Source: Acidithiobacillus thiooxidans ATCC 19377 (GTDB lineage: Bacteria > Pseudomonadota > Gammaproteobacteria > Acidithiobacillales > Acidithiobacillaceae). From it: a DNA stretch of 64,000 nucleotides. Both the position numbers and the translations under genes were made by a program. Of this stretch, positions 29,445-34,751 are shown in pieces. Location of the stretch: the NCBI RefSeq assembly GCF_009662475.1, contig NZ_CP045571.1, positions 2,292,501 through 2,356,500 on the forward strand. The letters are read 5' to 3'. The stretch's first letter is position 1, and every line of letters starts with the position of its first letter. Below the pieces are notes generated by a model. It was given only the letters and a program-made list of their open reading frames with translations. It ran no database searches and was not told the origin of the DNA.

Positions 29445-29885
29445 ATGAACACCCAATGGATGACTCGTATTGCCGATAAGACAGGCGTTATCGGCACCCT
29501 TATCGGAAGTTTTAGTTGCGCCATGTGCTTCCCCGCAGCGGCGAGCATCGGGGCGGTCATTGGCTTGAGCTTTCTTAGTCGGTGGGAGGGGCTCTTCGTG
29601 CATATCTTGATCCCGGTTTTTGCCAGTATAGCCTTGGCTGCTAATCTAATCGGATGGTTTTCTCATCATCAGTGGCTTCGGGTCTTGGCTGGTATCATCG
29701 GACCCATACTGGTTTTAATCGGTTCCTTTGGAATGACTCAACATTTCCTGCCCATAATGATGGCCCGTGAGCTTTTTTATGTCGGTCTAGTTGTTATGTT
29801 GTTGGCAGCATTGTGGGACTTGTTCAGCCCGGCACATCGTCGCTGTAACGTGTCCTTACCAAAAGAGGGCCAGCGTGGCGGGTAA
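29445..29885 (+). CDS. merC: Mercuric ion transporter MerC
   Basis: 146 aa, four transmembrane segments, with the C-A-M-C-F-P motif in the first one (G-S-F-S-C-A-M-C-F-P-A-A), the Hg(II)-binding pair of MerC. It imports Hg(II) to the cytoplasm for reduction. Here it stands alone with merR; the reductase is encoded about 22 kb away in a separate operon. A split arrangement of mer genes with merC is known from Acidithiobacillus ferrooxidans. Confidence 0.93.
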   Translation: MNTQWMTRIADKTGVIGTLIGSFSCAMCFPAAASIGAVIGLSFLSRWEGLFVHILIPVFASIALAANLIGWFSHHQWLRVLAGIIGPILVLIGSFGMTQHFLPIMMARELFYVGLVVMLLAALWDLFSPAHRRCNVSLPKEGQRGG

Positions 29886-29908
29886 TTTGCGCCATGTGCG
29901 TGCGGAAG

Positions 29909-30180
29909 TATAGTCAAATCTGTTTTAGGCGCGTTTTATGACATAGATCAGTGGCGCACTGTTGATCCTCCGACAGGTTTTGGTTGGTTTGAGTTTATCT
30001 GCAAATTCACCCCTCCCAAAATCTGCTGAAATTTTTTCCGGCGCACAAGTCCCGCCCAGTTATTCCGCCGCAGCATCTTGAAAATCAATCCCAGGAAGCC
30101 ATTGCGTGTTATAGAGTTCTTGGTCAGATCAGGAGGGTAAATAGCAAATTCCTCATATAGCGTTTTCTGGAGCGAGCCTA
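29909..30180 (-). pseudogene. Decayed IS256-family transposase 3' end
   Basis: Starts with TATAGTCAAATCTG and continues with TATGACATAGATCAG, matching the left end of the IS256 element at 14922. Translated on the minus strand it gives T-K-N-S-I-T-R-N-G-F-L-G-L-I-F-K-M-L and then I-L-G-G-V, aligning with the C-terminus of that transposase but with frameshifts and substitutions. An old relic, diverged well beyond the intact copy. Confidence 0.75.
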
Positions 30181-30327
30181 ATAAAAAGCTGCTGGCATAT
30201 AGGCATTCAACTTCCAGCCATGCAAAATAATACCAACTATAATCTTCAGATAGCCTTACATTTAATGCAACCCGCCCCCGTCATGATAGCCGTGTGAGGA
30301 CTGTGGAGTGCGGTCAGGAGAAGACTC

Positions 30328-30918
30328 ATGTTAAAACTGAAAATTGCCGTTCTTTTTACCGTCACCTGCCTTTTTTCCAGCTGGGCTTGGGCGCATACAG
30401 CCGGACCCAGCCCTGAAGCTCTGTGGAAAGAAGTGCAAATTTTGCAAAAAACGCACGCCATCATGCCCGGAAGTACACCCTTTCAGCTGGGATCTCGGAC
30501 GGTTGATCCTTACACTGTGGACCTGGCCAACACTTTGGCAATATCCACTATAAAAAAAGCCGGTGGGATACTGAAAGTGACCCGCTATAGTAACGGAAGC
30601 CTGGTGGTCAAAGAGAATTACAATGCCCACAAGCAGTTAGTTGGCGTTACCGCCATGCTGAAGGCGGCTAAATATGATCCTTCAGACCGCAACTGGATCA
30701 TGGCTGCCTATGATCCCACCGGTAAAGTCCTGGCTTATGGCAAAGTAGGCAGCTGTATCGCCTGTCACGTACTGGTCCGCCATCAAGACTTGGTTTTTGC
30801 TCCGCCGCCAACACAATTATTGCCGATCACCACTTGGAAGGCTTTTTTCTCCAAGCAGGAAATGAATCCGGCTTACGTGACACAGATTCAAAAACATCCC
30901 GAGGCTGTCGTTCAGTAG
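30328..30918 (+). CDS. Periplasmic cytochrome P460-family protein
   Basis: 196 aa with a signal peptide (cut near A-W-A-H). A single heme c motif C-I-A-C-H at about residue 151-155 follows the W-I-M-A-A-Y-D-P-T-G-K-V region typical of P460-fold proteins. Cytochrome P460 oxidises hydroxylamine or detoxifies NO in other bacteria; the substrate here is unknown. The DsrE-like gene begins 25 bases later, so the two are probably one operon exported to the periplasm. Confidence 0.85.
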   Translation: MLKLKIAVLFTVTCLFSSWAWAHTAGPSPEALWKEVQILQKTHAIMPGSTPFQLGSRTVDPYTVDLANTLAISTIKKAGGILKVTRYSNGSLVVKENYNAHKQLVGVTAMLKAAKYDPSDRNWIMAAYDPTGKVLAYGKVGSCIACHVLVRHQDLVFAPPPTQLLPITTWKAFFSKQEMNPAYVTQIQKHPEAVVQ

Positions 30919-30943
30919 CCTGCTCATTCAGGAGGATATTCCC

Positions 30944-31435
30944 ATGCAACGTTTTATTCTGGCCTTTCTGTTTCTGTCACTTGGCTGCCTGTTCACCAAT
31001 GCCCAGGCTGAAAAGCTCAATGACACTGCGGCCCTATCGGGCTTACATGATGCAAAGGCCGTATTTTTAGTGAATATGCGTAACCCGGCGGCTGTGGATC
31101 ACCTGGTCAGAGTCATCGGTTTGACCCGCAAGCAACTTCTGCAACAAAAGGTGACGCCGCACTTCATCGTGGTCTTTATCGGTCCAGATGTCGCATTTCT
31201 GACCAAAGATCGTCGGGGCATACCTTACACAGAAGAAAGGGATATCGCGGGGATTCAGGGAGAAATCCTGAAGCTCAGCCACAAAGGCATCCAGTTTCAG
31301 GCTTGTGGCGTGGCGCTACACGGTATGGACGTATCTCCGAGCATGCTGATTCCGAGCGTAACGCCTGTGGAAAGTGGATTCATCTCTACCATTGCCTACC
31401 AAGAGAAGGGGTATGCTTTGGTTCCAGTTTATTAG
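30944..31435 (+). CDS. Periplasmic DsrE-family protein
   Basis: 163 aa with signal peptide (cut near A-Q-A-E-K) and AGGAGG upstream. The fold shows in H-F-I-V-V-F-I-G-P-D-V-A-F-L and the single cysteine of G-I-Q-F-Q-A-C-G-V-A-L-H-G, the position used for sulfur transfer in DsrE/TusD-like proteins. Exported DsrE-like proteins are common in sulfur oxidisers. Pairing with a P460 cytochrome hints at a shared redox role, which is inferred. Confidence 0.82.
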   Translation: MQRFILAFLFLSLGCLFTNAQAEKLNDTAALSGLHDAKAVFLVNMRNPAAVDHLVRVIGLTRKQLLQQKVTPHFIVVFIGPDVAFLTKDRRGIPYTEERDIAGIQGEILKLSHKGIQFQACGVALHGMDVSPSMLIPSVTPVESGFISTIAYQEKGYALVPVY

Positions 31436-31639: not shown

Positions 31640-31716
31640 TGGTGCGCTCGGAGAGAGTCGAACTCCCGACCTACTGGTTCGTAGCCAGTTGCTCTATCCA
31701 GCTGAGCTACGAGCGC
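31640..31716 (-). tRNA. tRNA-Arg(ACG)
   Basis: 77-nt cloverleaf with encoded CCA: acceptor GCGCTCG/CGAGCGC, D-arm with AGCTGGATAGAGC, anticodon stem ACTGG/CCAGT around CTACGAA (anticodon ACG), T-arm GGGAG-TTCGACT-CTCTC. All stems pair. Reads CGN arginine codons after A-to-I editing. Confidence 0.97.
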
Positions 31717-31785: not shown

Positions 31786-32526
31786 TCAGGAATTTCCCGA
31801 ACTGTCTCCGGATGCCCCTCCGGCCTTTTCTTTGGCCATTTCTGCCTTTAGACGGGCGAGATCATCATCAACGCCACTACTGGCGCGTACTTTATCCAGT
31901 TCCTTATCGGTTTGGCTGCGAGTATCGAGGGGGTCACTGAGGGCACCCGACTCAATCAGGCCATCCATGGCAGTTGCCTTGGACTCCATTTGGGCGGTGC
32001 GGTCCTGGGCGCGACGCATGGCCTCACCGGCGTCATCCATACCCTTGCCGATACCACTCAATGATTCTCCAGCCTGGACCTCAGCCTTGGCAGCCATCAT
32101 TTCGCTTTTGGTCACTTCTTTCTGGGTACGGAACTGTTCAATATGATCCTGCAGTTTCTGCTCATAATCCTGCAGCTTCTGGGACTGAGCCGACACCGCA
32201 TCATGCGCTTCCTTGAGACTGGCCAGTTTTTGCAATTCAGACTGCTTTTGGGCCAACTCGGCGCGGGCCAGGTCTTCACGGTTGGCACCCAGAGCCATCT
32301 TGGCATCTGCGTCGGCCTTGTCAGCGGCTTTTTGCGCTTGTGCCATCTGACTTTCCAGCGACACTTTTTCAGTAACCACATCGGCCAGATGGCGTTTGGT
32401 TTCCTGCAGGTTGGTGATCATTTTTTCATATGATAAATCCAGGGTTTCAGCAGGATCTTCCGCATTATTCAGAAAATGATTGACCTTACCCTGCAATATT
32501 TCTGAGGCATGCTTAAATAATGACAT
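31786..32526 (-). CDS. pspA: PspA/IM30-family membrane-stress protein
   Basis: 246 aa with AAGGAG before the start. Almost entirely alpha-helical coiled coil, opening with the amphipathic M-S-L-F-K-H-A-S-E-I-L-Q-G-K and the family's E-D-P-A-E-T-L-D stretch; the tail is Gly/Ser-rich. PspA proteins form ESCRT-III-like scaffolds that shore up damaged inner membranes. It is the last gene of a four-gene operon with two YbjQ-like proteins, an arrangement different from the enterobacterial pspABC operon. Confidence 0.93.
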   Translation of the reverse strand: MSLFKHASEILQGKVNHFLNNAEDPAETLDLSYEKMITNLQETKRHLADVVTEKVSLESQMAQAQKAADKADADAKMALGANREDLARAELAQKQSELQKLASLKEAHDAVSAQSQKLQDYEQKLQDHIEQFRTQKEVTKSEMMAAKAEVQAGESLSGIGKGMDDAGEAMRRAQDRTAQMESKATAMDGLIESGALSDPLDTRSQTDKELDKVRASSGVDDDLARLKAEMAKEKAGGASGDSSGNS

Positions 32527-32556
32527 TGAATACTCTCCTTGCGAATGACTCGCGCT

Positions 32557-33381
32557 TTAATCGTTGACCGGAATAACCAGTTGCGGGCTCAGGCCATCAA
32601 CCAGAGCATCGGCATTTTCCATGGCTTTCACGGCGGTACCGACGGCAAAAAATTCGATGATATGGGGTTTCCAGTTATGGCTGCCTTCATGAAGCTGAAC
32701 GCCGGTAATGCCGTCCGCCTGGGCTTCCTGCGCCTCATGTTGCATACGTTCCATGGCAAGCTCCCTGGCGTCATACATGGCTTGGGTAAATTGTTCCATT
32801 TCCGTATTGCGACCCACATTTCCCATGGATTTCAACAGCCCTTGATGTGCCACATGATACACGCAGGAACCCATGACCATTTCCATGGGGCGGTAACCCG
32901 CCTGCAACAACATCCAGAAGTCCTGACCACTCAGATCACTGGTAAAGGGCTTGCCGCCCACCCCCTTGAAGCCTGACGCGCCACTGCGGTGGGCGATGGC
33001 CGTGCCAATCGCCATGAATTCGAGAATGTCCTGATCCCATTCCATACGCTTCACTTCCAGTCGCACACCCACAATACCATCGGCCTGCAGTAAAATGGAT
33101 TCCTGCTCCATGCGACTGATAGCCAGCTCACGGGCTTGATACATGGCCTGAGAAAGCACATCCATTTCCATGTTTTGATTCCAGTTTCCATACTGGATTC
33201 CCATGTGATAAATACACGAACCGACCACCAGACCCAAGGGCTCAAAATTGGCCTTGCGGACCATCACAAACTCATTGACGGACAAATCCGAAGTAAATAT
33301 ACCTTCGTGACTGCCCTGCGAACGCAGTCCTTTCAGACGTTCTACAGCATGGGGAGCGAGATGTTCTGTACTATCGGTCAT
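32557..33381 (-). CDS. Tandem YbjQ-like (heavy-metal-binding fold) protein
   Basis: 274 aa made of two similar halves (about 25-135 and 145-260). Each has a V-x-G-S-C-x-Y-H core strand, an A-M-Y-x-A-R-E-L-A-x-x-R-M helix and a A-D-G-I-x-G-V-x-L strand, the pattern of the YbjQ_1 domain, often labelled heavy-metal-binding though metal binding is unproven. Start overlaps the upstream stop by four bases. No signal peptide. Sits between a paralogue and pspA. Confidence 0.75.
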
Positions 33382-34355
33382 ATCAAATCCTTTTTGGAGT
33401 CAGTAGCACTGGTCAGGGGGTGATCAGCCAGTGATATCATGGCAAGCAGTTCATGTTGCGGTGGGTTTTTTGGCAGATAACTGATGGCGGTACCAATACT
33501 GATGTGGCGGCATAGAAAACGTTCGGGGTTGTCCTGATCGGCAGGTACCCGAAACATTTGGGTATAACTGGTGTGTCCAAGAACTCCGGCAGCCATCTTG
33601 CGGCCATCTTCGCGCAAATCATAAAGCGCCCGGCGCCGGACATTTTCCTGAAAAGTAGAAAGGTCGGTAATTTCCATATTCCAGTAACGTGCCGCAAAAG
33701 GTGCCTGCTGAGAAGCCTGATCGGCGACCGTACCCATCCAGGGCATGTACCAGTCAAAATTGGCGCCAATGGCAATACCTACAGGAACCACGCCATCTTC
33801 CAGCAAACGGACAAATTCCAGGGCTGACACAGTAGCGATAACTGGCGCGGTGGCAGGGGGAATTCCGGTTAGCCGGATAGCGGTGCCGGTCACCCCATAA
33901 TCCATATCCTCACCTTCCCCATGCCGCACTTTCATGCGCACATCGACAATCGCATTAGCTCCCAGAGCGATGGCTTCAAGGCGCATTCGCTCTACCGCCG
34001 TGTGCCAGCCATCGTAGTGTCCCTGGGTCCAGGAATAACCAAAGTGATACCAACAGTTTCCGGTTACCATACCGATAGGCTGAACCCCGTGACTGCGTTG
34101 CAAAAGAAGTTCTGCGGCAGTGGCCGTACTGATCCAGGGAAGATGCCCCTGACTGGTCGCGAACAGGCGATTTTGAACAAAACTGGGCAGGCGGCGTTGC
34201 TGCAAGGCCTGTTCCCATTCAGAATAACGCTGCATTTCTTCAGGGGTTTGTGAACGGACGCCCTGGCTCACGTTATGACCCAGATTTTCGGCCGCTCGCT
34301 GCGCGTCCTGGGCGACTTCCTCAATACCGTGTTTGATCTTGTCCCAAATGGACAT
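33378..34355 (-). CDS. Second tandem YbjQ-like protein
   Basis: 325 aa. After a 55-residue amphipathic helical N-terminus ([15 protein letters not shown]) come two YbjQ-like units: [10 protein letters not shown] with [11 protein letters not shown], and [13 protein letters not shown] with a more diverged helix. Paralogue of the next gene; AAGGAGG lies before the start. The N-terminal helix could contact membrane, as in PspA, but this is a guess. Confidence 0.72.
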
Positions 34356-34370
34356 AGTACCTCCTTGCCG

Positions 34371-34751
34371 TTACCCCATGAGAAAATCGTGCAATGTATT
34401 GCTGGCTCCCTGCATTTCTCCGGACAAATCACCGAGGTCTTTCACCAGACTTTCGAGCCAGGTAGCGAGTGGTAAATCCTCATGTTTAAGCACCACGCCA
34501 CGCACGGTTTTGGCGCGAACCGTGCTGATATGAGCACCCTCATGAGTCAGTAAATAATCGTTATTGTTGGTGTGAACAGTAATGGCATGGACATGGCTGG
34601 TCTTGGCAAAAAAACCGTCTTTTTTTCTTTCTACTTCAACCAAGCCGGGCATATCTCCCTCCAGCCTTGCCGCCAATCCTTCTACAAAAGCCTTCATGTC
34701 ACCTTGCGCGCGCCTGATCCAGGCGGTACTTTGGTCAAAATCTGTGCTCAT
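34371..34751 (-). CDS. Hypothetical protein, first gene of the PspA operon
   Basis: 126 aa, no recognised family, no signal peptide or membrane segment. Mixed alpha/beta composition with H-V-H-A-I-T-V-H-T-N-N-N-D-Y-L-L in the middle and a helical C-terminus. Ends 15 bases before the first YbjQ-like gene, so almost certainly cotranscribed with it and pspA. Confidence 0.65.
   Translation of the reverse strand: MSTDFDQSTAWIRRAQGDMKAFVEGLAARLEGDMPGLVEVERKKDGFFAKTSHVHAITVHTNNNDYLLTHEGAHISTVRAKTVRGVVLKHEDLPLATWLESLVKDLGDLSGEMQGASNTLHDFLMG

Follow-up and report, generated by a model that had tools for sequence, protein, structure and literature searches.

What is a PspA protein doing beside two proteins that each repeat a YbjQ-type domain, and which part of such a locus is the constant one? 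The question is raised by four co-directional minus-strand genes, A, B, C and D, at positions 31786-34751 of the window, the whole stretch of 64,000 nucleotides of Acidithiobacillus thiooxidans ATCC 19377 that was analysed. An earlier note on this DNA had described four tightly spaced genes, and this layout was reproduced: all lie on the same strand, A and B are 15 bases apart, B and C overlap by 4 bases, and C and D are separated by 30. The features are as follows; the counts refer to aligned rows that were picked by similarity, so that the invariance of the Cys-His sites is inflated.

34371..34751, minus strand: gene A, 126 aa; no Pfam family; modelled as a helix, five strands and two helices
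33378..34355, minus strand: gene B, 325 aa; two predicted YbjQ-type domains behind an N-terminal helix
34269..34349, minus strand: B residues 3-29, predicted amphipathic N-terminal helix (pLDDT about 47-58, which is low confidence)
33870..34118, minus strand: first predicted YbjQ domain of B, residues 80-162 (Pfam, hhalign, AlphaFold2 model, profile match to solved sequences)
34044..34055, minus strand: C101-x-x-H104 of B (Cys in 77/82 rows, His in 66/82)
33474..33833, minus strand: second predicted YbjQ domain of B, residues 175-294 (hhalign, AlphaFold2 model, structure alignment)
32557..33381, minus strand: gene C, 274 aa; two predicted YbjQ domains; the most conserved member
33205..33216, minus strand: C56-I-Y-H59 of C (Cys in 79/83 rows, His in 83/83)
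32845..32865, minus strand: C173-V-Y-H176-V-A-H179 of C (Cys and both His in 83/83 rows)
31786..32526, minus strand: gene D, PspA/IM30 family, 246 aa; the only PspA of the genome

Searches for promoters and terminators gave site numbers no higher than in shuffled sequence. Immediately after pspA, and also on the minus strand, comes tRNA-Arg (acg) at 31640-31716, the only tRNA gene in the window; past it, the plus strand carries MerC-like, cytochrome P460-like and DsrE-like genes (29445-31435; the DsrE match is slightly below cut-off).

Gene D exceeds the PF04012 (PspA_IM30) cut-off, with 82.6 vs 33.9 bits, and is related to solved PspA/Vipp1 chains. However, it falls far below the cut-off of the classical PspA equivalog, TIGR02977 of NCBIfam (70.7 vs 242.95 bits). 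A genome-wide search of A. thiooxidans identified D as its sole PspA, and the same kind of search for PspB, PspC and TelA found none. This bears out the earlier proposal that pspB and pspC are missing, and the pair PspB and PspC, by which a classical Psp system is recognised, is lacking from this genome. PspA itself is a relative of ESCRT-III and forms rods, as described in parts of PMC8281802, PMC11746142 and PMC12358876.

The partners of D are of another kind. Protein C exceeds the PF01906 (YbjQ_1) cut-off in two stretches (75.6 vs 23 bits) and B in one (28.9 vs 23 bits), the second half of B being missed by Pfam. When the half-proteins were compared with hhalign, the first and second halves of C matched each other at 100%; the first half of C matched the first and second halves of B at 99.4% and 98.2%, and the second half of C matched them at 98.8% and 96.7%. 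The two halves of B matched each other at only 15.7%, which counts against the YbjQ likeness of the second half. The AlphaFold2 model of B (30 rows, mean pLDDT 78.7) contains two beta-alpha-beta-beta units, and Foldseek ranked 1y2i first for it (E 2.7e-3, probability 0.98). For B residues 175-301, the VIA-align ranking, made among chains taken from the Foldseek top 1000, was led by the YbjQ/DUF74 entries 3qkb, 1vr4 and 1y2i, with Z of 6.8, 6.3 and 5.8, values below 8 being middling by the tool's own note. Searches with the B and C profiles hit YbjQ proteins of solved structure at E 7e-4 to 4e-3. Thus, from Pfam, the half-protein profile comparison, the model of B and the structure matches, B and C together are predicted to hold four YbjQ-type units, two in each protein. 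The earlier note had counted the same four; for the second half of B the count is carried by the 98.2% hhalign match, the model and the top structure matches, and the model of B gives YbjQ folds. The pentameric rings that the note mentions for such domains are also in print: parts of PMC4092069 and PMC2954204 describe the solved YbjQ proteins as homopentamers, one of them with alternative folds among its subunits.

Four ordinary YbjQ genes lie elsewhere in the A. thiooxidans genome, two of which are nearly identical and far from the operon (L002:1501-1821 and L003:1501-1821). The work on thiamin phosphate synthase reportedly concerned YjbQ, which is a separate family. Part of PMC7084401 ascribes this activity to YbjQ proteins, and the two names may have been confused in that statement.

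Proteins B and C also carry Cys-His sites. In the 83 similarity-picked rows, the C-x-Y-H-x-x-H motif of C is invariant (C173, H176 and H179), as is H59, and position 56 is Ser in the 4/83 rows that lack the Cys. None of the genome's four ordinary YbjQ proteins has C-x-Y-H. As for the N-terminal helix of B, the hydrophobic moment of the window's sequence was matched by 1/5000 shuffles. Among five relatives, three gave a similar result (1 to 12 of 5000 shuffles), whereas two were not amphipathic by this test (387 and 2069).

No Pfam family reaches its cut-off with gene A. A CesT/Tir chaperone was considered because part of PMC11237479 describes such partners of PspA, and the CesT and DUF2170 models of Pfam gave no match to 22 A proteins at E up to 0.1. 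The most frequent Pfam match among these proteins was DUF5073 (3/22, best E 2.7e-4). The model of A had no Foldseek match below E 0.3, and the A profile no match to PDB sequences up to E 1. VIA-align placed A at Z 6.5 to 6nzu_I and 6.3 to 1ew4 (frataxin/CyaY), middling values that are tied with those of unrelated rows.

The block is a stable feature of the family. A protein search found A in 26/57 genomes: all 17 of the genus (the window's own included), 9/12 in the rest of the family, 0/2 among the other genomes of the order and 0/26 in the class. The block is present in each of the 25 relatives with A. The order A-B-C-D in one direction is kept in 22 of them (one with D cut at a contig end), two have B-C-D followed by A, and in the last, L056, a contig end falls inside C and a run of N in B. 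The three family members that lack A (G024, G025 and G028) also lack C, and two of these genomes are at least 90% complete. Identity to the window in the aligned rows was 90-98% for C and went down to 66% for PspA, 60% for B and 52% for A, which indicates that C is under the strongest constraint. An ABC transporter upstream of the block is common to part of the genus.

Outside the family, C is rare. In the phylum, 2/299 genomes have it, one of them that of the window (E up to 1e-30); at E up to 1e-20, so do 2/385 genomes of the class of G165 and 11/396 of the phylum of G357. A collection scan with C returned at least 580 relatives, and the best 80 of these were analysed; since these loci are the most similar of the at least 580, the conservation seen in them is inflated. 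Among the matches listed, the closest C proteins with a named source belong to Acidithiobacillus, with identities of up to 100%. The best 80 of the at least 580 come from Pseudomonadota, Planctomycetota, Myxococcota, Actinomycetota, Bacillota and Bacteroidota, with two lacking a phylum; many of the records are MAGs, for which misbinning is possible. Open frames were labelled with profiles of A, B, C, PspA and TelA (the B genes of L137 and L138 had been labelled C). In these best 80 of at least 580 loci we found A in 76, B in 77, a neighbouring PspA in 55, TelA on the upstream side of A in 17, both in none and neither in 8, and the labelled genes were all on one strand in 80/80. Of the four loci in which no A was seen, three run into a contig end, and the fourth, L121, lacks the gene. 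The orders in the same best 80 of at least 580 were A-B-C-D (41), TelA-A-B-C (16), A-B-C (7), C-D-A-B (4), B-C-D-A (2) and others (10). Median spacings in this set were 10.5 bases for A-B, -1 for B-C, 24 for C-PspA and -4 for TelA-A (exactly -4 in 9/17 TelA loci), with starts that are uncertain because genes were called from the first start codon. Pfam confirmed 6/6 sampled PspA genes, and 5/5 sampled TelA genes exceeded the PF05816 cut-off (51.0-76.9 vs 30 bits).

The genes of the block run in one direction, lie close to one another and are passed on together. The earlier note would have been undone by a gene order confined to this strain, and the neighbourhood analysis places the block across genera and phyla. 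A chance meeting of YbjQ and PspA in a single strain is ruled out by the conserved block in the relatives and in six phyla. Anti-phage defence was also considered: A, B, C and one TelA had no PADLOC match, and the three weak ones of PspA (E 4.5e-4 to 1e-3) were taken as coiled-coil noise.

The block also exists in reduced and expanded forms. B and C were each found in three plasmid records. One cyanobacterial plasmid holds pieces, and two Streptomyces plasmids have B-C-A (L063:4118-6219 and L064:4154-6240), with no PspA or TelA found alongside. Ten further Actinomycetota loci comprise six with A and two or three YbjQ genes and four with a lone C-like gene; no PspA or TelA was present in the fetched stretches, that of L185 being cut close to C. 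Two Actinomycetota loci, L188:3402-6290 and L189:4775-7747, carry A and three YbjQ-type genes. In the alphaproteobacterial-class genome G403 (L194:2081-8154), A is followed by a C-like gene, a pair of B-type genes, C and PspA, so that the YbjQ part has been multiplied there.

The loci with TelA bear directly on which part of the block is constant. Among the loci examined, the neighbour is PspA or TelA and never both. A quick-method tree was built from 83 C proteins, with L062 and L065 omitted; on it a single change accounts for PspA versus TelA, the TelA rows sitting within a PspA background. With PspA, TelA and neither as three states, 6 changes are needed, whereas shuffled states need 24.9 on average. 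Since PspA and TelA were swapped a single time, the swap is not repeated evidence. The 8 loci with neither, among the best 80 of at least 580, include L131, which is cut just upstream of A, and seven that are uncut. All seven genomes of the uncut loci have a PspA elsewhere. In four of the seven (those of L151-L154) this unlinked PspA scores 217-224 bits with the module-PspA profile; in the other three it is another type (33-66 bits). Of the six unlinked PspAs scored besides those of L151-L154, five, among them these three, reach 33-75 bits and one reaches 172. The PspA of the module is therefore of a type of its own, which also occurs unlinked in some genomes. The 172-bit protein, near the module type, belongs to G361, a TelA-type genome (L159:2325-3110), and is perhaps a leftover predating the swap. 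A TelA search of 14 genomes found the gene only in the four TelA-type ones, one copy each, at the module; two of these four are without PspA, and PspA or TelA is present in 14/14.

The TelA form and the cases of unlinked PspA suggest that A+B+C is the constant core of the module and PspA an exchangeable effector. Thus, the gene make-up that the earlier note presented as an unusual membrane-stress PspA operon with four YbjQ-type domains is well supported, but to frame it as a PspA operon with extras was too narrow and understates the core. The joint YbjQ-PspA scaffold that the note thought conceivable is a conjecture.

How might such a module work? Because of the YbjQ pentamer, the PspA rod and the stress literature on TelA, we favour a reading, to which we give a probability of about one half, in which A+B+C would act as a cytoplasmic sensor-adaptor and PspA, or TelA in one clade, as the membrane-acting effector. 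B and C would build a YbjQ-type ring or a mixed assembly. Stress would alter this assembly, either at the Cys-His sites, by a metal ion or by oxidation of thiols, or through a loss of proton-motive force; B through its N-terminal helix, or A, would then pass PspA to the inner membrane, where PspA would polymerise and seal or reshape the bilayer. A+B+C would in this way take over from PspB and PspC of the classical circuit, which the A. thiooxidans genome lacks. We count in favour of the sensor-adaptor reading the joint absence of A and C in the three family members, the tight C-PspA and TelA-A spacing, the module-type unlinked PspA and the Cys-His motif that the ordinary YbjQ proteins of the genome lack. 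Against it we count the seven uncut loci with neither neighbour, three of whose genomes have a PspA of another type, the Actinomycetota and plasmid loci without a partner, and the two B helices that are not amphipathic. A more specific version, in which A+B+C is self-standing, a mixed tandem-YbjQ ring with Cys-His sites senses the metal or redox state and either nucleates a membrane-remodelling polymer or releases it, and PspA and TelA are interchangeable outputs, is tentative, with perhaps one chance in a few of being right.

The habitat of the carriers brings in a different reading. A genus is named for 32 of the best 80 of at least 580 loci, and 26 of the 32 fall in Acidithiobacillus, Igneacidithiobacillus, Thiomonas, Acidiphilium, Acidocella, Dyella and Alicyclobacillus. 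These seven genera are acid-loving or acid-tolerant; since the sample is biased to the kin of the window, the link to acid habitats is a lead only. Together with the invariant Cys-His motif of C and the naming of TelA after toxic anion resistance, this would fit a metal or oxyanion tolerance unit, in which the YbjQ Cys-His sites bind or buffer cytoplasmic metal and PspA or TelA shields the membrane with no contact between them. However, the sampling bias weakens the habitat argument, metal binding is ascribed to YbjQ by prediction, and part of PMC12791056 ties TelA/YaaN to nisin susceptibility in Listeria and to induction by a cationic peptide in Bacillus, not to tellurite alone. We hold a tolerance unit to be possible and, on balance, rather doubtful.

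The loci without a membrane partner invite another reading, namely that A+B+C has a function unrelated to membranes, for example as a scaffold or an enzyme, and that the PspA or TelA polymer organises it in the cell. This would agree with the Actinomycetota loci in which neither PspA nor TelA lies near A and its two or three YbjQ genes, and with a C that is much more conserved than PspA. However, all 14 genomes searched retain PspA or TelA, including the seven without such a neighbour, four of which keep the module type, and a non-membrane role is accordingly unlikely. That the neighbours simply travel together by horizontal transfer and share no function is very improbable: phyla are mixed on the tree of C and the best 80 of at least 580 include the rearranged orders C-D-A-B and B-C-D-A, but among 3074 clustered flanking open frames from 84 loci (the 80 and L062-L065) no other family recurs beside the block across lineages, A is present in 76 of those best 80 of at least 580 with three of the four misses at contig ends, A and C are lost together, and module-type PspA persists unlinked.

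Returning to the sensor-adaptor reading and to what the module may mean, a linkage of YbjQ (UPF0145, DUF74, PF01906) with PspA or TelA was not found in the searched literature, which would make this a new variant among PspA-based stress systems. The conserved cluster and the replacement by TelA point to a stress module not described in that literature. In the same literature we found no function for a YbjQ protein, despite solved structures and pentameric rings, and we know of no paper explaining the mechanism of the TelA resistance gene. A module that joins YbjQ, TelA and PspA, a bacterial ESCRT-III relative, gives YbjQ and TelA a testable setting. The exchange of PspA for TelA is a natural experiment: if TelA acts here as PspA does, it is a membrane-stress effector, and if the two are interchangeable outputs, it is a second, PspA-equivalent one. 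The module may also let bacteria of acid, metal-rich places manage membrane stress without PspB and PspC. Many partners of PspA have been described in two surveys of PSP systems, one of them PMC11237479, and the terms YbjQ, "heavy metal" and DUF74 are missing from the main texts of both.

Compared with known systems, the block resembles the proteobacterial Psp system (pspF-pspABC) by encoding a PspA/IM30 protein in a compact operon alongside probable regulators, but differs from it in that the genome lacks PspB and PspC, its PspA falls well short of the classical equivalog, and the partners are A and two tandem-YbjQ proteins. As in the CesT/Tir-PspA dyad operons of the yjfIJ type (PMC11237479), a small alpha/beta protein adjoins a non-classical PspA; unlike in those dyads, A has no CesT or DUF2170 match within the E limit given above, and the sections of PMC11237479 that describe the dyads do not mention YbjQ. 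B and C share their fold and Pfam family with the YbjQ/UPF0145/DUF74 proteins 1y2i, 1vr4, 2gtc and 3qkb, the solved ones being pentameric in the descriptions cited above (PMC4092069, PMC2954204), whereas here the domains would be in tandem in two proteins, with an extra Cys-His motif and in an operon with PspA or TelA. The XpaC-TelA/YaaN operons of Listeria and Bacillus also have a TelA family protein tied to envelope stress; in those, according to part of PMC12791056, the partner of TelA is XpaC, and here it is A and the YbjQ proteins instead.
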